Shown here: positions 684-50,391 of the stretch, in pieces | Layout of the letters: each line of letters begins with the position of its first letter | How positions within the stretch are numbered: position 1 is the stretch's first letter | Assembly: GCA_938001915.1 (NCBI GenBank) | Contig: CALLBD010000011.1 | Location: forward strand, 1-64,000 | Direction: 5' to 3' | DNA length: 64,000 nt | DNA from: an uncultured Caulobacterales bacterium | Lineage (GTDB): Bacteria; Pseudomonadota; Alphaproteobacteria; Caulobacterales; Maricaulaceae | The notes under the pieces: generated by a model | Seen by the model: the letters and a program-made list of their open reading frames with translations, nothing else | What the model was told of the DNA's origin: nothing | Database searches by the model: none | Position numbers and translations under genes: made by a program

Positions 684-1765
684 GTAATCCTTCCCCCAGT
701 CAGCGGGTGCGGTGCGCCTGTTGTTTGCGGGAAGCTGATGGGCAGGCCTTTCAGAGTACGGACAGCGAGATAAGCAAAAGCTTGCGCTTCTAGCATATCA
801 CCATTCCAACCAACATGCTCCGCCGTCACGACCACTGCATCCGTATGCACATCAAGCATTGCCATGGTTGCGGGGTTTTTACGCCCACCCCCACAGACAA
901 TCACCATTTGGGCGTCAAAGCGCCCCAAATCACGCGCAATGGATTGTGCGCAAAATGAAGCGAGCGTTGCTGCCCCATCTGCAAGCGACATACCGTCCAT
1001 TTGATTCAGAACATTGAAGTCATAACGATCGGCACTACGCGGAATTGGTCTCCTGAAGAAATCTCTCTCAAGCCACTGATTTATTTTATTAAAATCAACC
1101 TCGCCAGAGAGCGAAAGTTTTCCATCCCTATCAAAATCCATATCGGTTAACTGGATTACCCAACTGTCCAAGGGACCATTCCCCGGCCCACAATCCGTCG
1201 CCCAACAGATTGTGCCGTCTTCGATGGCTGTTACGTTAGAAACGCCGCCAATATTCAGAACAGCAACTCTTCCTGAGAGTTCAGAATATCTGACAAGCGC
1301 TTCGTGATAAACGGGCGCAAGCGGAGCACCCTGCCCGCCCGCCTCAACATCTGCGCTTCGGAAGTCATAGACAACAGGGACGCCAAAATTATTAGCGATG
1401 GGCTTTCCACGCCCAAGCTGCAGGGTTTGCCCTTTTTCACCACCCAAAGGCGGATGATGCAGGATCGTCTGCCCATGATAGCCGATAATATCAGCACGAA
1501 TATCGCCAATTGCGGCAATATGCGCTGCGTCGATTATATCCTCGGCCTGTGCGAAGCTATTTGGTGGCAGTCCGTCAAATCTCCAATTTAGAGCGTCTTT
1601 AGTAGCCCTGTTTAGAAAGATATTTTCTTTTTCCAGAAACGGTCTTTCCGCAACCCCGCCAAACCCAAAAATATCCACGCCGTCTGTCTCAATCACGGCG
1701 ACGTCCACACCATCGAGCGAGGTGCCGCTCATGAGCCCTAATGCAGTATAACGCTTCTCATCCAT
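644..1765 (-). CDS. anmK: anhydro-N-acetylmuramic acid kinase
   Basis: Recycles peptidoglycan by opening and phosphorylating 1,6-anhydro-N-acetylmuramic acid to MurNAc-6-phosphate in the cytoplasm. At 373 residues it has the usual family length. The N-terminal ATP-binding motif MSGTSLDGVD is intact, as are NIGGVSN, DCGPGN and the late CGGGRKN motif. It is divergent from tyrS, with about 45 bases between start codons. In many alphaproteobacteria anmK and tyrS are neighbours, which supports both calls. The anhydro-sugar substrate would be produced by lytic transglycosylases such as the Slt encoded near 22.5 kb. Confidence 0.95.
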   Translation of the reverse strand: MDEKRYTALGLMSGTSLDGVDVAVIETDGVDIFGFGGVAERPFLEKENIFLNRATKDALNWRFDGLPPNSFAQAEDIIDAAHIAAIGDIRADIIGYHGQTILHHPPLGGEKGQTLQLGRGKPIANNFGVPVVYDFRSADVEAGGQGAPLAPVYHEALVRYSELSGRVAVLNIGGVSNVTAIEDGTICWATDCGPGNGPLDSWVIQLTDMDFDRDGKLSLSGEVDFNKINQWLERDFFRRPIPRSADRYDFNVLNQMDGMSLADGAATLASFCAQSIARDLGRFDAQMVIVCGGGRKNPATMAMLDVHTDAVVVTAEHVGWNGDMLEAQAFAYLAVRTLKGLPISFPQTTGAPHPLTGGRITYPSKSLGSRGGE

Positions 1766-1810
1766 ATCTAACCTTTGACACGAATCTCCTGCCCGTTAGA
1801 AGCGCCAATT

Positions 1811-3079
1811 ATGACAAAACATGCTTCCAAATTTATGCAAACTCTTGTCGGGCGCGGGTATCTTTATCAATGCACCGACGAAGCAGGATTGGATGCGCTC
1901 GCACAGACTGACAACCTCGTTGGCTATATTGGGTTTGATTGCACCGCCCCGAGCCTGCATGTGGGATCGCTTGTGCAAATCATGATGCTGCGTCACCTAC
2001 AACAAAGCGGCGGAACGCCCATTGTGCTTTTGGGGGGCGGCACGACCAAGATTGGAGATCCTTCAGGCAAAGACAAATCCCGTCAAATGCTGACACAGGA
2101 AAAAATAGATTCAAATAAGGAAGGTATTCGTCAGGTCTTTTCTAAATTCCTAAGCTTTGAAGGCCCCAATGCCGCTATCATGGTCGACAATGATGACTGG
2201 CTGGGGAAACTTGGCTATCTAGAATTTTTGCGCCGTGTCGGAACAGAATTTACCGTGAACCGCATGGTGACAATGGAAACAGTCAAACGCCGCCTCGAGA
2301 ATGAGCAGCCTATGACCTTCCTTGAGTTCAATTACCCGCTTCTACAAAGCTATGACTTTGTTGAATTATACAAACGACATGGCTGCCGCCTTCAACTAGG
2401 CGGGTCTGACCAATGGGGTAATATCACAACAGGTGTAGACCTCACCCGCCGCATGGAAGGCGGGGAATGCTACGGCTTCACAACACCGCTCATTACGACC
2501 TCATCTGGCGGCAAAATGGGTAAAACGGCGGATGGCGCAGTCTGGCTCAATGGCGACCCTGCGCTTGGTAAAGACTTCACGCGAAGCCCTTATGAATACT
2601 GGCAATTTTGGCGAAACACGGAAGACGCTGACGTCGGTAAATTCCTTCGTCTGTTTACGGATATGGCAGACAAAGATATTGAGGCCTTAGATGCCCTGGA
2701 AGGCGCAGACATCAATACCGCAAAGATAGCACTAGCAAATGCAGCGACAGCCCTCTTGCATGGTGAAGTCGCGGCAAAAGAGTCTGAGGCAACCGCCAAA
2801 AAGACCTTTGTGTCGGGCCAAACGGCAGCTGGACTGCCAACGGTTGAAATTAGTCTGGCTGACTTACTCGGGATGGGCATCCTTACAGCCACAACTAAGG
2901 TCCATCTCGCGGGGTCAAATGGTGAAGCGCGCCGCCAAATCAAACAAGGCGCATTGAAGTTGAATGACGTGAAAGTTACAACACACGAGCTCATCATAAC
3001 AAAGGCCAACATTATCAACGGGGTTGTAAAAATTTCGGTCGGGAAAAAGAAACGCGCGCTGCTGAAACTCATAGACTAG
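1811..3079 (+). CDS. tyrS: tyrosyl-tRNA synthetase
   Basis: Charges tRNA-Tyr with tyrosine (class I aminoacyl-tRNA synthetase). The HIGH-like signature lies in PSLHVGSL (residues 47-54), the KMSKS-like signature is GGKMGKTADG, and a C-terminal S4 RNA-binding domain carries REIKQ-like EARRQIKQGALKLND. The ATG at 1811 (422 residues, beginning MTKHASKF) is preferred over the in-frame TTG at 1775: it matches the normal N-terminus, and AGAAG precedes it. The extra twelve residues of the longer form look like leader sequence. It ends 17 bases from the convergent AsmA-like gene, and no terminator is visible between them. Confidence 0.96.
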   Translation: MTKHASKFMQTLVGRGYLYQCTDEAGLDALAQTDNLVGYIGFDCTAPSLHVGSLVQIMMLRHLQQSGGTPIVLLGGGTTKIGDPSGKDKSRQMLTQEKIDSNKEGIRQVFSKFLSFEGPNAAIMVDNDDWLGKLGYLEFLRRVGTEFTVNRMVTMETVKRRLENEQPMTFLEFNYPLLQSYDFVELYKRHGCRLQLGGSDQWGNITTGVDLTRRMEGGECYGFTTPLITTSSGGKMGKTADGAVWLNGDPALGKDFTRSPYEYWQFWRNTEDADVGKFLRLFTDMADKDIEALDALEGADINTAKIALANAATALLHGEVAAKESEATAKKTFVSGQTAAGLPTVEISLADLLGMGILTATTKVHLAGSNGEARRQIKQGALKLNDVKVTTHELIITKANIINGVVKISVGKKKRALLKLID

Positions 3080-3096: not shown

Positions 3097-6000
3097 TTAT
3101 TCGGTGCCCTTGGGTGCCTCTTGCTTAGGCTGCACATCCTGAATGGCCTCCTTCATGGCATCGTCAATGTCGGAACGGTCTCGTTTAAAAATCCCTCGAA
3201 GGAAACCTGGTGTGAGAGCGGACAAGGGATTGACGGTTATTTGGGTTTGTTCAAAAGGCCCATCCACCGTGTACGTCAACGCGAATAACCCACCGTCTTT
3301 CTCCTGAATAAAGATATCGCCTAGGAGTGGGATATCGCCTAAAATAGAGTTGGCCGTGTAGGCGGGCACAAGGGTCCCATCAAAATCAAGTTCACGGTCC
3401 GCCAAATCTATATCACCATTACCTGTCATTCCGACCGCTGGCCCATAAAGACGCGCATCTCTAATCGCGATATCATCCCCTAAAATCGCAAATGGCACTT
3501 TAAATCTATCGAACTGCATACTCCCACTCGTCAAAGTATCCGCGAGCCCAGTCAGTGAGGCCAAAGACAATAATTTCGCTAATGCCGGAGCCTCCTCTAG
3601 CCTAAAATCCCGCATCTCAGCTTCGCCAACATAGGCGCCGGTCTCGCCCGCCGCTGGAAGGTTTGCTGTAATTGTCAACTGCCCCCCGGTCGTATTATTA
3701 AGACCCAAAAAGGCCGAAACAGCTTTCGAGGCATCGGGCACGCTGACGTCGAATTGACGCTTTAAATCTTCCCTGGTCGCCAGAGATAATTTCAGCGCCT
3801 CACCGTCTGACAGTGCTTCCAATCTCGCCGTCTCCACAACTTCGCCAGTATGGGAGAAATAAATTTCTGAATTTGTGACAGGGAAAGCGTCGGAAAGTAT
3901 TAGGTTTTGCACCTTCCCCCTCATTAGAATCGGAACGTCAATATTACTTTTTCGCTCCTGAAATAAGTCCTCAGTCCAAGGGCTTACGTTTAAATAATCC
4001 GCGTTGAACTCAAAACCCAACTGCCCGGCAACTCGATCAGGCGTAATTTTCACGGTCCCATCTATAAGCGAGGCAATTTGCATTTTCGAGAAATCCAACT
4101 GACGCAATTTAAAATCGGACTCTAAAATAATCCTTCCGCCAACATCAATTCCGGCGCCGTTCAAAAGTGCATTCTCAATTATGTAACTATTGTCGGAGCC
4201 GCGAACAAGTTGACCAGTGAGCTTGGCCGGCTCTCCATCGGGCTTCATCCAAATTCGCTCTAATGATAATTCTGAATTGGTGAAATCAACATCCAAGGTG
4301 CCGCCAGAAATTTGTGTCCCGCGACCCAAAGCATCAATCTGTACGGCCGCCGACCCGTCAAACACCGTCCGAGAGGCAAAGCCGAGTCGATCCAAAAGAT
4401 CCGCATCAATGACTCCAGATATGCCATATCGCGTTGGAAGCGCATTATCCCCCAAAGTCTCAAGCCATGTAATTTCAGCATCCCATGGTCCAATTTTGAC
4501 TGGACCTTTGATGAGAGCGCGTTCTCGATTTGCATCAATTGTTACATTGCCATCCGTAATTTTATACTTGCCAAAATCAAAAGGCGCAGTTGCATTGAAA
4601 AATTTGCCTTTAACTTCATAGTGAATTTGATCTCGCGGCAAAAATGGGGTTAGTGCGCGGTTCAGCTTTATATTGACTGAACCGTCGCCCGAAATAGAGT
4701 CAGGCGCGATTTTATATCGACTGGCGACCTCAAAGGGCGGATAATCTGCTAGCTTCAAAAGGTCGGAGGTCCGCCCCCGACTGTTTAAATCTATATAAAT
4801 TTTACTATCTGGTTGCCCGAGGACTGGTATAAATGCCGCCCCATCTGTGACATTAATGGCCCCAACTTGTCCATTTTGAAATGCGACATTCAATCTGTTC
4901 CCAATGATTTCGCCTTGGACTGAAACCTGCGTCATCGGCGGCAAGGTTTGCATATATCTTACGGACCCTCCGTTCCCCTCAAAATAGAACTTCAATCTAT
5001 CCTGAGTTAGCTCTCGCGTCTGAAAGAACCCCTCATCTAGTTTTAGCGCCGATCTGACCTTGGTAATATCGGCATCTAAAACCGCCTGCTCTATCCATCC
5101 ACGGGCGCCTGGAAAGGACTTACTCGGCCAGAGAGAGAGGAAATCTCGCGGTGAGATCGTCCCAGACATCTCGGAATTGAACTCTAACGATTTCAAGGCA
5201 TTATTACTTTCGAGAACTAACGCGCCATCAAATCTATGCACCGAGTCAAAGATATCTATTTGACCTCGGCTAATCTCGAGTTTGCGACTATCTACATCGG
5301 CTTGGCCCGTAACTTTCAAGCCTTCAATTTTGGTTTCTGTCGGGAAAATCTGCGTTAGATTGGCATTTATATTCTTTAAAGAAAGATCGAATACGGGTGA
5401 ACTATTCACATCGCCATCACTTAGATTCCCGAGCTGAGTTAAAAACCCTGAACTCTCAAAGGAAAGATTAGGCGTTTTCAGATCGAGGACCTCAACATCC
5501 ATGCGCTCTTCACCAGGGGCCAATGAGGCTCTTATGGCCAAGCTATCAAGTGCAAAAATACGGTCAGAATTGTTTCGCAGGATTTTGAACTCACCAGGGT
5601 CTACATCCACCTCAACGGAGGCTGAACGCAAACCCTCTCGCCGAGAAAAATCGATATCTGTCGTTAAATCGACGGGGGCAGACAACCCCTGCAGCTCCAG
5701 GAACCGTCCCCGCCTGGGCCCAATCTCATTCAATCGGGCCATCTCGACTTTCAAACGCAGTCTTATAGCGTCATAGGCTGAGTCCGATAATAGGTTGATG
5801 GAGAAAGGCATAGGCTCTGTGGTCTGGTCCACAAATCCTGAGGCGGTGACCGCAAGCCCCCCATCTTGCGAGAAGCTTGTTCTCAAGAGATTGACATTGG
5901 ACTTTATATCGACGCCTGATTTTTCGTTTCTGAAATAAAATACAACGTCCTGGATTTGAAGAAATTCGAGGGAGCGTAATACGGACCGAAGATCACCCGA

Positions 6001-6612
6001 AGATTGAGAGGCTTCCCCACTTCGATAAACAGGCCCGACCCGGCCTACGCCTTCTGGCGGCCCAAGGCCCGCAATGATTTGCCCCTCGGAATTTTCGATG
6101 ACGGTTAGCACGCCCCCTTTGATTTCAGCATTGATCACTTGGGGTCTTGAAAAAATCCCATCTTCCAATTCAACGGTCGATTTAATGAGGTTGAACCGTT
6201 CTAGAACCTCACCATTTTCTCCGCGGATTTCGGCATTTTCTACTGTGACGACGATATGGTCATTCGCAGGCTGCCATGCCAAATCCAATCGGCCAAACTC
6301 CGCCTCTTTCCCGGCAAAGGCTTCGGCGAACCAAACTTTAATGTTGGGCCTCAACACAGTTAGGTCAGTAGACTGTTTCTCCAAGAGTGAGTTGGCCATC
6401 CAAAGGGCCGCAATACCCAGACCAATTGATACGGCGACCAAATCACCAAAGCCCCTATCAATGAGGTAAATTGTTTTTCTGAATATCAGCCAGGCCTTAC
6501 GCCCAAACTTAGAGAGAAAAGATGTCTTCACAGGGATAGTTTCAGCCCCAGTTTTTGGCTGTTCGTCTTCTGTCGTCTCATGCTGAGCATCTATGTCAGA
6601 ATTATTGTTCAT
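3097..6612 (-). CDS. AsmA-like / DUF3971 large envelope protein
   Basis: A 1171-residue protein of the AsmA/YhdP-like superfamily. Members span the periplasm and are linked to phospholipid movement to, and homeostasis of, the outer membrane. One membrane anchor lies near residues 56-76 (VSIGLGIAALWMANSLL). It is followed by a long beta-rich repetitive region and an AsmA-like C-terminal part with GDIDLADRELDFDGTLVP and a proline/lysine-rich tail. There is no lipoprotein box. The substrate of this homologue cannot be read from sequence. It is divergent from the peroxiredoxin gene, and the 89-base spacer holds an inverted repeat (6642-6657). Confidence 0.85.
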   Translation of the reverse strand: MNNNSDIDAQHETTEDEQPKTGAETIPVKTSFLSKFGRKAWLIFRKTIYLIDRGFGDLVAVSIGLGIAALWMANSLLEKQSTDLTVLRPNIKVWFAEAFAGKEAEFGRLDLAWQPANDHIVVTVENAEIRGENGEVLERFNLIKSTVELEDGIFSRPQVINAEIKGGVLTVIENSEGQIIAGLGPPEGVGRVGPVYRSGEASQSSGDLRSVLRSLEFLQIQDVVFYFRNEKSGVDIKSNVNLLRTSFSQDGGLAVTASGFVDQTTEPMPFSINLLSDSAYDAIRLRLKVEMARLNEIGPRRGRFLELQGLSAPVDLTTDIDFSRREGLRSASVEVDVDPGEFKILRNNSDRIFALDSLAIRASLAPGEERMDVEVLDLKTPNLSFESSGFLTQLGNLSDGDVNSSPVFDLSLKNINANLTQIFPTETKIEGLKVTGQADVDSRKLEISRGQIDIFDSVHRFDGALVLESNNALKSLEFNSEMSGTISPRDFLSLWPSKSFPGARGWIEQAVLDADITKVRSALKLDEGFFQTRELTQDRLKFYFEGNGGSVRYMQTLPPMTQVSVQGEIIGNRLNVAFQNGQVGAINVTDGAAFIPVLGQPDSKIYIDLNSRGRTSDLLKLADYPPFEVASRYKIAPDSISGDGSVNIKLNRALTPFLPRDQIHYEVKGKFFNATAPFDFGKYKITDGNVTIDANRERALIKGPVKIGPWDAEITWLETLGDNALPTRYGISGVIDADLLDRLGFASRTVFDGSAAVQIDALGRGTQISGGTLDVDFTNSELSLERIWMKPDGEPAKLTGQLVRGSDNSYIIENALLNGAGIDVGGRIILESDFKLRQLDFSKMQIASLIDGTVKITPDRVAGQLGFEFNADYLNVSPWTEDLFQERKSNIDVPILMRGKVQNLILSDAFPVTNSEIYFSHTGEVVETARLEALSDGEALKLSLATREDLKRQFDVSVPDASKAVSAFLGLNNTTGGQLTITANLPAAGETGAYVGEAEMRDFRLEEAPALAKLLSLASLTGLADTLTSGSMQFDRFKVPFAILGDDIAIRDARLYGPAVGMTGNGDIDLADRELDFDGTLVPAYTANSILGDIPLLGDIFIQEKDGGLFALTYTVDGPFEQTQITVNPLSALTPGFLRGIFKRDRSDIDDAMKEAIQDVQPKQEAPKGTE

Positions 6613-22537: not shown

Positions 22538-24595
22538 ATGACGAAAACTAGACCGTTTTTAGGCTTTATAACGCTTCTTTTTTCTATATTTTTCTGCAAC
22601 TTAACCGTAGTTTCTGCACATGCAGCTATACCTGCGCCGCGTTTAAAGCCAGCCCCGCCTCCCATGTCCGCCTATTTGAGCGAGTCGGACGCTAGGTTTT
22701 TTAGGCGAGGTCTCGCAGACGCCAAAGCCAGGAGATGGTCGGGGGTCGAGCGCGAAATCAACAGAATCAATGATCCCGTAGCGAAGGATGTGTTGCGCTG
22801 GATTCAAGCTGCCAATGATAGAAATGCTCCAACGGAGCGCCTTGAATATGTGCATCGATACCTTAATGATTGGCCGAGACTAACGCGGGTTCGCGCCGAA
22901 GCCGAGCGGCGCATGTTCGAAAAATCATGGGACGCCAACCGCATATTAAACTGGTTCCAAGGGGAAGACCCTCCCGTATCAGGCGAAGGAAGAGCCGCGC
23001 TTGCAGGGGCTTATTACGCAAGAGGCGATGTCCAAAATGGCGATAAATTTCTACGTCTGGCCTGGCGCGAGAGCCGCCTAACAAGAGACGGGCAAAAAAA
23101 AATATTTCGGCGCTATCAAAACAAATTTACAAAAGAAGATCATGCCGCTCGTGCAGATCACTTAATTTGGTCTGGATATCGCCATTTTGAAAAGGCGCGC
23201 GCGCTCCTCCCTCATATGGGGCGCACAGATCGTGCCCTGATGAATGCACGAATGCGGCTGAATAGAAATTCGTCTGGCATGGATGCGGCTGTCAATGCCG
23301 TACCTAGCACGCATATATCTGACCCCGGCTTCATTTATGAGCGGGCCCGCTGGCGCCGTAAGAAAAAGACTAAAACCTATGCCCTGCCAGTTTACCTTTC
23401 GGCCAGAGAAGCGCCAGTCTCGGAAGTTGGCAAAAAGGCTATGTGGCGTGAAAAAAAGATCATGGTCTATTGGGCGATATCTGAGCAGAAATATAAGGAA
23501 GCCTATCAACTGTCTCTCCACCACGGATTTACAAGAGGGACTGATTTTGCAGACGCCGAGTTTTTAGCTGGCTGGCTCGCGCTTACCCGTCTGAAAGACC
23601 CTGACCGAGCTCTAAGACATTTTACCCGTCTTCGCGACGGCGTTGGATCACCCATATCCTTGGCCCGCGCACATTACTGGATTGGGCGGACGCATGCCGC
23701 TAAGTCTGACGGGCAGCAAGACCAACACTATCGCCAAGCAGCTCAATATCCGAACACATATTACGGAATTTTGGCGGGGTCGGAGGTTTACGGAAGCTCT
23801 CATCGCGTGCTCCTCCCGCCCGAAACGATCTTTGATGGCGCTGAGGCAGAATTTGCAGCTGACAATCGGGTGCGCGCGCTTCACCTTTTGGGCGAGGCTG
23901 GCGAACAACGCTATTTCTCACAACTCAGCTATCACTTGGATGATGAAGTTGATAGTTTATCCAAGCTCTCATTATTAAGCGGGCTCGCTAAGGACTACGG
24001 GTTTATGCGCCCTTCGCTCCGGGCCGCCAAACAAGCCGGTCGGTTCCAATCTTTGTTAACCGAGAGCGGCTACCCCATCATAACCTCCATAGATGCTCTG
24101 CCCAGAAACAAATTTGAGCAGGCGTTCGTATATGCCATCGCGCGGCAAGAGAGCGAATTTGCAACCAATGCAGTGAGTTCCGCCAAGGCCTATGGCCTTA
24201 TGCAGATGATTAACGGTACAGCCAAAGCCACCGCCCGAAAACATCGCATCAAATATGACCGCAACCGTTTAGCCTCTGATGGAGACTACGCAGCGAAAAT
24301 GGGGGCGCTCCATTTAAATGATTTGCTAGATATGTGGGACGGGTCATATATCCTTGCGGCCGTCAGCTATAATGCAGGGCCGCACCGCGCCAAGACCTGG
24401 ATAAAGGCTTATGGTGACCCCCGTGAAGCAAATGTCGACGAAATAGACTGGGTCGAGAAAATACCCTTCTCGGAGACCCGAAACTATGTGATGCGCGTCA
24501 TGGAAAACCTGCAGGTCTATAGAGCCCGCCTTTCAAATGACGCTGCCCCAAATCGCTTGAAGCAAGATTTACGCGCTGGCCAGCAACCCTTTTAG
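22538..24595 (+). CDS. slt: soluble lytic murein transglycosylase (Slt family)
   Basis: A periplasmic enzyme that cleaves MurNAc-GlcNAc bonds, releasing 1,6-anhydro-muropeptides. ATG at 22538 gives 685 residues with a Sec signal peptide (about 1-29, ending VSAHA). A long alpha-helical superhelix (about 50-480) precedes the SLT domain. The catalytic Glu538 is in ARQESEF, followed by AYGLMQMINGTA and SYNAGPHR. A longer in-frame start at 22442 would put 32 extra residues before the signal peptide and is rejected. Its product feeds the recycling step of AnmK encoded near 1 kb. Confidence 0.94.
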   Translation: MTKTRPFLGFITLLFSIFFCNLTVVSAHAAIPAPRLKPAPPPMSAYLSESDARFFRRGLADAKARRWSGVEREINRINDPVAKDVLRWIQAANDRNAPTERLEYVHRYLNDWPRLTRVRAEAERRMFEKSWDANRILNWFQGEDPPVSGEGRAALAGAYYARGDVQNGDKFLRLAWRESRLTRDGQKKIFRRYQNKFTKEDHAARADHLIWSGYRHFEKARALLPHMGRTDRALMNARMRLNRNSSGMDAAVNAVPSTHISDPGFIYERARWRRKKKTKTYALPVYLSAREAPVSEVGKKAMWREKKIMVYWAISEQKYKEAYQLSLHHGFTRGTDFADAEFLAGWLALTRLKDPDRALRHFTRLRDGVGSPISLARAHYWIGRTHAAKSDGQQDQHYRQAAQYPNTYYGILAGSEVYGSSHRVLLPPETIFDGAEAEFAADNRVRALHLLGEAGEQRYFSQLSYHLDDEVDSLSKLSLLSGLAKDYGFMRPSLRAAKQAGRFQSLLTESGYPIITSIDALPRNKFEQAFVYAIARQESEFATNAVSSAKAYGLMQMINGTAKATARKHRIKYDRNRLASDGDYAAKMGALHLNDLLDMWDGSYILAAVSYNAGPHRAKTWIKAYGDPREANVDEIDWVEKIPFSETRNYVMRVMENLQVYRARLSNDAAPNRLKQDLRAGQQPF

Positions 24596-24629: not shown

Positions 24630-24658
24630 TTGACAACTTGTTCTTTATTTGTTCTTAG
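24630..24658 (+). promoter_or_regulatory. probable LexA-controlled promoter of the FAN1-DnaQ gene
   Basis: TTGACA at 24630-24635 is a perfect -35 element; a weak -10 would fall near 24653-24658. Between and over them lies GTTC-N7-GTTC (24640-24654), the LexA recognition sequence of alphaproteobacteria, placed where a repressor would block RNA polymerase. A second possible -10 (TATAAT, 24694-24699) lies downstream without a good -35. Confidence 0.65.
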
Positions 24659-24679: not shown

Positions 24680-24727
24680 GTGAATAAATGCTGTATAATC
24701 TGTGAGTACGCGCCGTGCCACCCCTAG
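24680..24727 (+). other. 15-codon leader ORF ahead of the FAN1-DnaQ gene
   Basis: GTG at 24680 with TGAGGA seven bases upstream opens a short frame encoding MNKCCIICEYAPCHP and ending in TAG at 24725-24727. That stop overlaps by one base an in-frame GTG (24727) of the large nuclease ORF. The nuclease itself has no clear ribosome binding site, so it may be translated by reinitiation after this leader. It could alternatively be the true N-terminus displaced by a frameshift. Confidence 0.4.
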
Positions 24728-26913
24728 TGTCACGCCAACATATACGCGCAGAACGTAACCGATATAGACGCAGTCAAAATGGACAGGTTTGGTCCGTCAA
24801 AACGTTACCCGCATTTTATTATCACGGTAATTTCTGCATGGTAATAGAGAGCGTTCGGGACGAACTTGGTGAAGTTTTAGACAAAGAAAGTCAAAGTTTT
24901 ATAAATGATTTCATGAACTTACCTTTCGAGGCTCAATGTGCTTTTGCGAGAATGTCGGCTAGGAAATCCAATATCTTCAACGTTGAAAAATTTGACTATC
25001 CCGAGATTGAAAACATCAATGTGCAGTTTGAAACCTTGTCGTATGCCCATTTTGTTTCAGACATCACGCCGGCCGACGGTAAAGATTTTTTCACATACCT
25101 CACGAAGCCCGAACTGATCGGCATGCTATCCGAAAACTCGAGCAAGGCGTCATTCAAGAAAACCTGGAAAAAATCTACCCTCATTGACTTTGCAATGGAT
25201 ACTCTGGACATCGCAAAGTTATCCGTTCCGCCAAAGTTTTGGGCGCAATCTCGCAGAGATGAGTTAGCCTATATATTCTACCTATACTCAGGGCGGGTCG
25301 ACAGCCCCTTCCAAGACTTGACACTTCGAGACCTTGGACTTGTTAAGCCGCCAAAAAGCAACAAACTTTTTGGCGATCAATTTGAATGCAAAGATAGTGC
25401 AAAGTCTGCTTTCTTCTACGCAAAAGCCTTACAGGGTTTGAAACAAGACAACATAGATCAAAATAATGGTCTAATTGGGACGATGTCGGATTGGCCGGAA
25501 CCAAACTGCCCCGTTAGTGCAAACCAACGCAATAAATTGCTCTACCAACTGGGCAAAATATCGGAGCAACACACCAATATTGAAACCGCCTTACTGCTCT
25601 ATGCAGAAGGGGAGAGTGCAGATTGTAATGAACGCCTAATCCGCTTGCGATACAAGCAAGGAGACAAGGTTTGGGTCAAAAAATATCTTGAGAAGACAAT
25701 CGACAACCCCTCCTCTGACGATGAGTATAATTTCGCGCAGGATTTTTATGTGCGAAAGTATAATAAAAAACGCACATCCGCCGTCACGGATATTTTACGC
25801 GACGCAGAGCAGATTGAATTAGATGAAGCCTTTAAAAACCGACCTGAACACGCCGCGCTGAAATTTTTTAGGCGCAAAGAACTTACCTGCTTAAGGACCG
25901 AAAATAAACCCTGGCGTACCCTGTTTGCTTTGCTTTTTTGGGATGAAATTTTTGGACAAACTCAAGATTTGAACGCTACCAAGACCTTGCACTCCAATCA
26001 ATTTTACTCGGCGAATACAGATTCAATTGAACGCAAGTTAGGCGAAATAGACACGCCCAATCTAATAATGATTCGGCTTTTAAAAACCTTTACCGCCAAT
26101 TTTGGGGTTAAACAGAGAATCATTCGGTGGGATACTCAAGCGCTCGACTCCATCCGCACCCTTATTGAAACCGCGCCGAGAGGCGCATTGGCGAGAATGC
26201 TGCGAGTGATGGCGAGAAATTGGAAAAACACCAAAGACGGTTTCCCTGACCTCATGATAGTAGAGAACGGTATATGTCGTTTTGTCGAAATAAAGGCCAC
26301 AGGAGATGTGATTCGCCGGAATCAGCTCACGCGCTTGCAACAACTTCGTAAGGCTGGGTTTGCGGCAAATGTTGTCAAAGTGAACTGGACAATTGACCCA
26401 AACCAAACCTATGTCGTTGTTGACGTTGAGACCACGGGAGGTCGCCCTGGGCTTCACCGTGTGACAGAAATTGGCGCTGTAAAAATAAAAGGCGGCGAAA
26501 TTATTGGCGAATGGTCAAGTCTTATAAATCCGCAGCGCTCCATTCCGCCCAATATCACGCGTATTACCGGCATATCTCATGATATGGTTGCGAGCGCGCC
26601 AATCTTTGCGGAAATTGCTGATAGCTTCGCTGAATTCATGGACGACGCCATATTTGCAGCACATAACGTGAATTTTGATTATGGATTTATTCGCGCAGAA
26701 TACCAAATGATAGATCGCCAGTTCCGCTATTCAAAAATATGTACCTGTGCGTCCATGCGCAGACTCTACCCAGGTCACAGGTCTTATGCGCTGAAAAACC
26801 TATGCGAGGCATTTAATATTGAACTGCATAATCACCACCGAGCACTATGTGATGCTCAAGCTGCCGCAAAACTTCTGTTATTGGTCAACGCAAAGCGTAT
26901 GGAAGTTGAATAA
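24715..26913 (+). CDS. FAN1-like VRR-NUC nuclease fused to a DnaQ-family 3'-5' exonuclease
   Basis: A 732-residue DNA repair nuclease. Residues of about 30-450 match bacterial FAN1: LPAFYYHGNF, a winged-helix-like block around LPFEAQCAFARMSARKSNIF, a helical repeat region and ENKPWRTLFALLFWDEIF. The VRR-NUC core follows (about 455-560), with PD-(D/E)xK residues Asp512, Glu525 and Lys527 in GFPDLMIV...VEIKATGD. The C-terminal 170 residues are a complete DEDDh exonuclease: Asp570/Glu572 in VVVDVETTG, HNVNFD (650-655), His708 and Asp713 in HHRALCD. The start is uncertain (GTG 24715 or 24727); ATG 24838 would cut into the conserved YYHGNF block. FAN1 acts on flaps and interstrand crosslinks. A LexA-type box lies upstream. 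Confidence 0.88.
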   Translation: MPPLVSRQHIRAERNRYRRSQNGQVWSVKTLPAFYYHGNFCMVIESVRDELGEVLDKESQSFINDFMNLPFEAQCAFARMSARKSNIFNVEKFDYPEIENINVQFETLSYAHFVSDITPADGKDFFTYLTKPELIGMLSENSSKASFKKTWKKSTLIDFAMDTLDIAKLSVPPKFWAQSRRDELAYIFYLYSGRVDSPFQDLTLRDLGLVKPPKSNKLFGDQFECKDSAKSAFFYAKALQGLKQDNIDQNNGLIGTMSDWPEPNCPVSANQRNKLLYQLGKISEQHTNIETALLLYAEGESADCNERLIRLRYKQGDKVWVKKYLEKTIDNPSSDDEYNFAQDFYVRKYNKKRTSAVTDILRDAEQIELDEAFKNRPEHAALKFFRRKELTCLRTENKPWRTLFALLFWDEIFGQTQDLNATKTLHSNQFYSANTDSIERKLGEIDTPNLIMIRLLKTFTANFGVKQRIIRWDTQALDSIRTLIETAPRGALARMLRVMARNWKNTKDGFPDLMIVENGICRFVEIKATGDVIRRNQLTRLQQLRKAGFAANVVKVNWTIDPNQTYVVVDVETTGGRPGLHRVTEIGAVKIKGGEIIGEWSSLINPQRSIPPNITRITGISHDMVASAPIFAEIADSFAEFMDDAIFAAHNVNFDYGFIRAEYQMIDRQFRYSKICTCASMRRLYPGHRSYALKNLCEAFNIELHNHHRALCDAQAAAKLLLLVNAKRMEVE

Positions 26914-48645: not shown

Positions 48646-50391
48646 CTAGTGGATATCAATGTGATCCGAAAATTGCGACCAGTCTGGCTCTGGCTGCAAA
48701 TCTATCATCGCATCATGCTGGGACAAATAAACATTTCCGCTCAGTTTCTCTAAGAAGTCAGACCTGTAGAACCGCTCTCTCACAACGGACTGCATGGCAG
48801 AAAGGTGAAGTTTGGCATCAACGCTTTTCAGCCGCTTGTTAATTTCGGTAAGACTAGACAAAGCGCTGGCATCAATCCGGCTTACGCCCGTACACATGAG
48901 TATAAGATCGGTCATTTGGGGATGATCCGATACTATTTTTGCCACCCTATCTTCGAGGTAGCGCGCATTGGCATAGTAAAGGCTGTCATCGATACGAAGC
49001 GTCTTAACAGTTTCAAAGGTTTCGACAATGAAACGATCAGCATCCCGATAATGCTCTGTGCCCGTAAACCGACCAACCAAGGGCATGTGAGGAGTTAAAC
49101 TCATTCTGATATGAAGGACCATTGCCAATACCACACCAACCAAAACGCCCCATTGCACGCCGAAAATCAGAACGGATAAGAATGTCGCGATTGCGGTAAT
49201 ACCGTCGGCCCGTGAATAGGTCCATGTTCGCCAGATACTGCGGAAGTCTAGTAAACTTAAACACGCCACAATTATCAATGCCGCCAAAACAGATAGCGGC
49301 AAATTATACAGGGCGGGCGTCAAAAAGAGAGCGGTAAGAGCCATGAATATTGCGACGAGCAAACCAACAAATGGCGTTTTTCCTCCAGCAGTAAAATTCA
49401 CAGCAGAGCGGGACATCGACCCATTAATAGGATAGCCCCCCGTAAGCCCTGCCACCGCGTTAGAGGCCCCTATGCCCAGCAATTCTTTATTCGTGTCTAC
49501 TCTACCTCGTTTACGTGACGCCAATTCTTGCGCCGTGGAAGTGCTGTCAACAAACGCAACAATGGCAATAACCAATGCGGGAACAAGTAAATTTTCATAT
49601 TCGGGAACGGACAAATTTGGAAATGACAACGGCGGCAGGCCCGCGGGTACCTCCCCTACAATGGCTAACCCGCTCTCTCCACCAAAATCAAAAATCGCAC
49701 TCAAACATACAAAAGCTACTATAATGACAATTGGCGCCATTCTCGCTATCAGCTTGGCCCATTTTGCACGAAGCCCAGACTTCACCAAAACATAAGGTAG
49801 CCCCTTACGAACGAGAAGAAATAGGGCTATCGCGACGGCCCCCGTTCCCACTGCGAGAACATTAACCTCCAAAAGCTGCGTTATTAGGCTTCCAATCATC
49901 CCAAACACTGTTTGAGACTCTACCTTAACCCCCAAAATATGTTTGGCTTGACTAAAAATGATGAGAAGGGCGGCCCCGGTAATATATGCAGAAACCACGG
50001 GCCGCGAGACAAAGTTCATTATAAACCCAGCTTTAAAAAACCCAGCAACAATTAGCATCCCGCCCGTCAAAAGCGCCAAGGCACCAGCACTTAGAATGCG
50101 GGTTTCAGGCGGAATCAAGGCTATTGTCGCGGCAGTCATAAGCGAAATAACGGCAGTGGGCCCGACGTTTAGATAATTTGACGAGCCAAGCAGGGCATAG
50201 GCGACAAGCGGAAATATCGAGGCATATATACCTATTTGCGGCGGTAATCCGGCGAGCAAAGCATAAGCCAAACATTGCGGCACAAGCAGGATTGTTACAA
50301 TAATCGCGGCCAGAAAATCATCTGCGAAAATTTGACCATTGTAGTTTTTCAACCAGCTATATTGCGTTCCAAAAACGTTCCGCAAATTCAT
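48646..50391 (-). CDS. SulP family anion transporter with STAS domain
   Basis: A 581-residue inner-membrane transporter of the SLC26/SulP family. About 11-14 transmembrane segments fill residues 20-430; family motifs include VPQCLAYALLAGLPPQIGIYA and GGYPINGSMSRSAVN. The cytoplasmic STAS domain (about 450-560) carries LILMCTGVSRIDASAL. Sulfate or bicarbonate are the usual substrates; neither is proven here. It lies 24 bases after a DUF442 gene, which could hint at a sulfur link. Confidence 0.93.
   Translation of the reverse strand: MNLRNVFGTQYSWLKNYNGQIFADDFLAAIIVTILLVPQCLAYALLAGLPPQIGIYASIFPLVAYALLGSSNYLNVGPTAVISLMTAATIALIPPETRILSAGALALLTGGMLIVAGFFKAGFIMNFVSRPVVSAYITGAALLIIFSQAKHILGVKVESQTVFGMIGSLITQLLEVNVLAVGTGAVAIALFLLVRKGLPYVLVKSGLRAKWAKLIARMAPIVIIVAFVCLSAIFDFGGESGLAIVGEVPAGLPPLSFPNLSVPEYENLLVPALVIAIVAFVDSTSTAQELASRKRGRVDTNKELLGIGASNAVAGLTGGYPINGSMSRSAVNFTAGGKTPFVGLLVAIFMALTALFLTPALYNLPLSVLAALIIVACLSLLDFRSIWRTWTYSRADGITAIATFLSVLIFGVQWGVLVGVVLAMVLHIRMSLTPHMPLVGRFTGTEHYRDADRFIVETFETVKTLRIDDSLYYANARYLEDRVAKIVSDHPQMTDLILMCTGVSRIDASALSSLTEINKRLKSVDAKLHLSAMQSVVRERFYRSDFLEKLSGNVYLSQHDAMIDLQPEPDWSQFSDHIDIH

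Follow-up and report, generated by a model that had tools for sequence, protein, structure and literature searches.

A single gene in the window (the whole stretch of 64,000 nucleotides that was analysed here) encodes a FAN1-type nuclease joined to a DEDDh 3'-5' exonuclease, and the main new observation is a predicted LexA box upstream of it. FAN1 is a crosslink-repair nuclease common to bacteria and humans; to our knowledge, its use in bacteria and the fate of the 3' end at its cut have been little studied. With a LexA operator predicted from the sequence, the fused gene is placed in the predicted SOS regulon. Its product is probably an SOS-induced, structure-specific repair nuclease, of which the FAN1 half would cut 5' flaps or crosslinks while the attached exonuclease would trim the adjacent 3' end.

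An earlier note on this DNA had proposed one frame joining a FAN1-type nuclease and a DnaQ-type exonuclease. The open reading frame and three Pfam domains confirmed this (Table 1). FAN1_HTH (59.1 bits, cut-off 27), VRR_NUC (54.3 bits, cut-off 23.8) and RNase_T (126 bits) all exceeded their Pfam gathering scores, the latter two being the profiles that the note had named for a check. The GTG is probably the true start codon, since GTG or ATG was found at the matching position in relatives of the same genus. The full-length fusion is also encoded in a single frame in 16 other genomes from this genus or family, with 48-60% identity, and a chance arrangement, an artefact or a frameshift chimera was thereby ruled out. 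An AlphaFold model of the fused protein, established with 52 fusions as input, reached a mean pLDDT of 88.4 and a pTM of 0.75. Apart from neighbors common to the genus or family, no conserved operon partner was detected.

Table 1. Features of the fused gene and of its upstream region, with positions in the window.
Feature	Residues	Position	Strand	Evidence
TTGACA, probable -35 element 5' of the LexA box		24630-24635	+	Conservation only; TTGAC kept in relatives
Predicted LexA (SOS) box GTTCTTTATTTGTTC, GTTC-N7-GTTC		24640-24654	+	Pattern match and conservation
Fused FAN1-DEDDh gene		24715-26913	+	Single uninterrupted ORF, 732 aa, GTG start, stop included
FAN1_HTH	34-114	24814-25056	+	Pfam PF21315, E 3.9e-16; same position in genome search
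FAN1 helical middle, SAP-like and TPR-like, with E378	115-452	25057-26070	+	phmmer to PaFAN1, predicted helices, Foldseek
VRR-NUC domain with D512, E525, K527	453-558	26071-26388	+	Pfam PF08774, E 1.7e-14
Short conserved junction TIDPNQTY	559-566	26389-26412	+	Conservation and model confidence
DEDDh 3'-5' exonuclease domain with D570, E572, D655, H708, D713	567-721	26413-26877	+	Pfam PF00929, E 2.4e-36

Judged by sequence comparison and by the model, the FAN1 half is a full-length FAN1-type nuclease and more than a bare VRR-NUC domain. In a phmmer search of solved structures, residues 33-561 of the fusion aligned to residues 19-558 of Pseudomonas aeruginosa FAN1 (PaFAN1; E 3.3e-18). The best Foldseek matches of the model were PaFAN1-flap complexes, and VIA-align recovered FAN1 over about 500 residues outside the C-terminal part with a Z score of about 20. 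D512, E525 and K527 align with the catalytic motif of PaFAN1, in which D507, E522 and K524 are the named residues (PMC9635880). A further acidic residue, E378, is aligned to a Glu conserved in PaFAN1 and human FAN1. E378, D512 and K527 were invariant in all 91 aligned fusions and all 42 unfused FAN1s; E525 was invariant in the 91 fusions and had a single exception among the 42 unfused proteins. The PaFAN1 residue matching K274 is one which we take to belong to the 5'-phosphate pocket. This position is occupied by K or R in 62/91 fusions vs 38/42 unfused FAN1s, and as the basic residue is less regular in the fusions, the fused lineage may have a looser pocket.

Pfam FANC_SAP stayed below reach in the window protein, although the region aligns with PaFAN1; the family was detected in one unfused FAN1 (L141). 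Within the VRR-NUC domain, helices were predicted at residues 474-486 and 491-501 ahead of strands at 513-517 and 520-528, the first strand being without assignment, and this topology is compatible with FAN1. The VRR-NUC domain of FAN1 carries a two-helix insertion, is monomeric and acts on flaps rather than Holliday junctions (PMC4103454). The usual FAN1 architecture ends with VRR-NUC, whereas in all fusions a DEDDh domain of 170 residues follows it. This additional C-terminal domain is a variant feature and not a criterion for the chemistry of the FAN1 family.

For the C-terminal part, residues 561-731 resemble the DEDDh exonucleases of DinG, PolC and DnaQ, and a sequence search of solved structures matched residues 563-725 to the exonuclease domains of the same three proteins. 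The best-fitting fold was the exonuclease of Staphylococcus aureus DinG (SaDinG; VIA-align, Z 26.5, rmsd 1.5, 169 residues, 36% identity). D570, E572 and D655, the latter within HNVNFD, are invariant in every one of the 91 fusions, and H708 and D713 are kept in all but one sequence, which is gapped there; a fusion with either active site lost was not found among the 91. The residues listed in the earlier note (Asp512, Glu525, Lys527, Asp570, Glu572, HNVNFD, His708, Asp713) proved correct by alignment, with E378 as an addition, and its description of a complete FAN1 N-terminal part and core followed by a complete DEDDh exonuclease agrees with Pfam, the PaFAN1 alignment and the fold matches. Some DnaQ-fold proteins work on RNA, and Pfam weakly reported the exoribonuclease family Rv2179c-like. 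That the domain acts on RNA, or is mainly a DNA-binding or docking module and not a DNA exonuclease, is nevertheless highly improbable in view of the conservation of the five DEDDh residues and of its best sequence and fold relatives, all of which are DNA exonucleases.

The note had further termed the exonuclease proofreading-type. The DnaQ fold held, but closeness to the DnaQ of the host did not: the domain scored 99 bits with the dnaQ_proteo model (cut-off 222.7) and 98 bits with PRK05711 (cut-off 196), which places it outside the proteobacterial epsilon family. In an exonuclease-domain tree, for which the sampling of outgroups was biased by the search patterns, alphaproteobacterial DnaQ-like proteins were split from the exonuclease halves of the fusions at 97%. 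A capture of the exonuclease from the host's own DnaQ is supported neither by these scores nor by the tree. The same genome encodes a second DnaQ-like gene (C119:783-1301). By these comparisons the exonuclease has a DnaQ fold, yet is not near the host DnaQ, and it is not necessarily a proofreader.

Among unfused proteins, the closest relatives found were the exonuclease domains of Bacteroidota DEDDh/GIY-YIG proteins and one protein from Verrucomicrobiota. In the tree of this short domain the GIY-YIG group sits among the fusions, with weak inner branching. The Bacteroidota proteins (L103-L109) represent a parallel fusion, in which the same type of exonuclease is joined to another type of endonuclease. 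The verrucomicrobial protein (L102:3773-4531) is a stand-alone DEDDh exonuclease with 59% identity to the exonuclease half of the L101 fusion, likewise verrucomicrobial and its nearest relative found; no FAN1 remnant lies within 4 kb on either side, and a FAN1 half may have been separated or lost. Within the family of the window, identity to the window protein amounts to approximately 70-81% in the exonuclease half and approximately 40-54% in the FAN1 half. Judged by this higher identity, the added exonuclease domain is under stronger constraint than the FAN1 half.

Upstream of the fused gene, a transglycosylase-like neighbor ends at 24595, and the predicted box in between shows the GTTC-N7-GTTC pattern of the Caulobacter-type LexA operator (PMC9578287). 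When seven upstream regions were aligned, the box formed the main invariant block, with TTGAC ahead of it; a consensus promoter scan made no call at the TTGACA. The pattern was matched 64 times in the whole genome, no more often than in a reversed control, so that a lone match is weak evidence and the weight comes from conservation. Two other matches occur in the window (6193-6207, minus strand, and 50366-50380, plus strand); a total of three is near the 1.9 expected by chance, and these two may be meaningless. The alpha-type box was also found upstream of recA and lexA of this genome, which served as positive controls. The earlier note did not contain this box, through which the gene is linked to the SOS response.

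Boxes were then counted in the 250-base start region of each locus, the loci being related and hence not independent samples. GTTC-N7-GTTC was present in 35 of the 40 alphaproteobacterial fusions, against expectations of 0.13 (real windows taken from these loci) and 0.27 (shuffles), and in none of the 40 gammaproteobacterial ones. These carried CTG-N10-CAG in 23 of 40 cases (1-2.1 expected), often as a near-perfect TACTGT-N8-ACAGTA. A perfect box was missing in 5/40 alphaproteobacterial and 17/40 gammaproteobacterial fusions. The SOS argument is strongest in this point, that the predicted box type changes from one host class to the other. Unfused gammaproteobacterial FAN1 genes (L126-L169) have boxes as well, with CTG-N10-CAG in 23 of 43 start regions vs approximately 3-4 expected. 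SOS control may therefore be general to bacterial FAN1; in agreement with this, PA1865, which encodes FAN1 in P. aeruginosa, is induced by UV-C and ciprofloxacin (PMC12796719).

The boxes of the unfused genes also bear on how closely the two halves cooperate. Unfused FAN1 functions without an exonuclease and often has LexA-type boxes too, and each half of the fusion looks complete by itself; the chain could accordingly hold two independent SOS nucleases with separate substrates, combined for equal dosage or common recruitment. We regard this as quite improbable: the short junction is conserved across a long evolutionary span, and the lack of any fusion with a lost active site is less expected from a loose tether. 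Across 52 diverse fusions the junction of about eight residues has invariant Q564 and Y566 and an almost invariant P562, and model confidence across it is high (pLDDT about 91). A junction this short, conserved and confidently modeled argues for two nucleases fixed in their placement rather than loosely tethered.

Within the genus of the window, 14 of 18 genomes encode the full-length fusion, as do three of 18 further genomes in the family; it was absent from all 24 sampled genomes of other families in the order. Beyond the family, species genomes were scanned for conserved exonuclease motifs, and at least about 70 further fusions were identified, a lower bound since 80 loci were kept from the scan; their architecture was checked. 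They come from Hellea, Robiginitomaculum, Asticcacaulis, Neomegalonema, Bradyrhizobium, Woeseiaceae, Alteromonas, Glaciecola, Pseudoalteromonas, Idiomarina/Aliidiomarina, one Oceanospirillaceae genome and Verrucomicrobiota. Overall, at least about 90 full-length fusions are distributed over Alphaproteobacteria, Gammaproteobacteria and Verrucomicrobiota, i.e., two phyla. FAN1_HTH was present in 55 of 398 sampled genomes of the phylum. In this sample every alphaproteobacterial match has a frame length of 724-754 aa. Most matches of the gammaproteobacterial family f191 have frames of 719-784 aa, and nearly all remaining matches of the sample are of unfused length, the call of fused or unfused being made from frame length alone for several of these genomes; two members of f191 that were read were placed with Glaciecola and Pseudoalteromonas. 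No genome with both a fused and an unfused FAN1 was found among those sampled.

Three genomes deviate from the common picture. The Bradyrhizobium-like genome G416 carries two different full-length fusions (L113 and L125), each with an alpha-type LexA box. In a Woeseiaceae genome two frames that overlap, 3920-4792 and 4647-6017, make up the fused gene (L081:3920-6017), owing to either a frameshift or an assembly error. In an Alteromonadaceae genome (G451, L170:1-2888) the FAN1 gene is broken after approximately residue 98 by an insert of 1.3 kb, whose ORFs 1262-1684 and 1681-2499 (both on the plus strand) resemble the OrfA/OrfB pair of an IS3-family element.

In a tree of the FAN1 halves, fusions and unfused proteins were separated by one branch with an SH-aLRT support of 100% (88 vs 28 rows), and the same split was obtained after addition of more divergent unfused proteins (76 vs 37 rows); both trees were built by a quick method, the branch that divides them is long, and all of their unfused rows derive from a single phylum. 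With the two groups on opposite sides of one branch, the trees fit a single fusion event with subsequent spread. Against a phage origin, no phage record spans 80% of the query; the matches cover the exonuclease domain, one of them extending slightly into VRR-NUC. A mainly plasmid-borne gene was likewise rejected, as only five of 72,556 plasmid records contain the fusion, all on large Bradyrhizobium and Pseudoalteromonas replicons.

In the mechanism that we propose, LexA would repress the gene via the upstream box, as its pattern and conservation suggest, and DNA damage would lift the repression. By homology, the FAN1 half with its HTH, SAP-like, TPR-like and VRR-NUC parts (E378/D512/E525/K527) would bind branched DNA. 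Its VRR-NUC domain would cut the 5'-flap strand a few nucleotides beyond the junction, like PaFAN1, which cleaves 5' flaps (PMC4103454), and the cut would lead to unhooking of an interstrand crosslink or to flap clearance (PMC4103454, PMC9635880). The DEDDh half would digest 3'-5' from a 3' end at the same junction, tied there by the roughly eight conserved residues. Precedents for this activity are the DEDDh domain of SaDinG (PMC12345164) and the mitomycin C repair factor MrfB (PMC11194089), both DNA 3'-5' exonucleases. Its candidate targets are 3' flaps of short length, nascent 3' ends that have stalled and the 3' end from the FAN1 cut. According to PDB titles, FAN1 structures include 5' flaps and double flaps with a 3' tail, and because of this tail the 3' end next to the cut appears as the natural target of the added domain. 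If the two activities are coupled, a double flap or blocked end would thus become a clean gap, ready for polymerase and ligase. We infer both chemistries from the conserved active sites, and the action of both domains on the same junction from the architecture. The order given in the earlier note, incision before trimming, is plausible.

MrfB suggests another use of the exonuclease, namely resection 3'-5' away from the FAN1 cut, by which the stretch with the lesion would be removed in a one-protein excision pathway. Resistance to mitomycin C requires MrfB independently of UvrABC (PMC11194089), MrfB possibly resects in this way beside the helicase MrfA, and the exonuclease family is common to the Bacteroidota DEDDh/GIY-YIG proteins. 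Such DEDDh domains favor single-stranded ends, however, no conserved helicase partner lies beside the gene, and no result here supports long resection; we therefore consider this reading unlikely. Trimming of the 3' end next to the cut remains our preferred function. In its furthest form, which we put forward tentatively, the fusions would constitute a distinct FAN1 lineage in two phyla, mostly LexA-controlled in Proteobacteria, in which a single molecule would handle both polarities of a junction at a double flap or crosslink, with VRR-NUC acting on the 5' flap and the closely docked DEDDh domain on the 3' flap or end. We know of no FAN1 described as processing both polarities at one junction.

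The earlier note had given as one refutation of its proposal that the fusion might be widespread and already described. The former applies, as the fusion forms a FAN1 lineage of its own in two phyla; the latter does not, since a literature search aimed at the fusion found no paper describing it, a mention in the core FAN1 papers (Gwon 2014, Jin 2018) or in Iyer 2006 being possible. Both halves are well known singly, and what was not found in the literature is their lineage-wide, SOS-linked combination. Public annotation, where seen, reads "exonuclease domain-containing protein" only, so that the FAN1 part is hidden; as it registers the exonuclease domain, domain databases probably list the fused architecture already. 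An SOS-linked FAN1-exonuclease lineage hints at which second activity FAN1 needs. It offers one protein for direct tests of coordinated endo- and exonuclease action, and its culturable hosts (Asticcacaulis, Alteromonas, Pseudoalteromonas and Bradyrhizobium) provide a genetic handle.

Among known systems, Bacillus subtilis MrfB resembles the exonuclease half as a DEDDh 3'-5' exonuclease against mitomycin C damage, but is a separate protein which works with the helicase MrfA and has no FAN1 part (PMC11194089). The DEDDh/GIY-YIG proteins (NCBIfam PRK07883 family) combine, like the fusion, a DEDDh exonuclease with an endonuclease domain of structure-specific type; their GIY-YIG endonuclease follows the exonuclease, and a FAN1 part is lacking. 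The closest solved fold for the exonuclease half, SaDinG (PDB 8ZEF, 9II8), likewise has a DEDDh exonuclease joined to another DNA-processing domain, whereas this other domain is a helicase, with the exonuclease at the N-terminus (PMC12345164). P. aeruginosa FAN1 (PDB 4R89, 4R8A, 5Y7G, 5Y7Q) and human FAN1 can be aligned with the fusion over the full length of HTH, helical middle and VRR-NUC core, and their catalytic residues are conserved in it. Identity is approximately 20%, the fusion has no Pfam SAP match and a fully supported branch lies between them; both FAN1 proteins stop after VRR-NUC, where the fusion continues with its DEDDh exonuclease.
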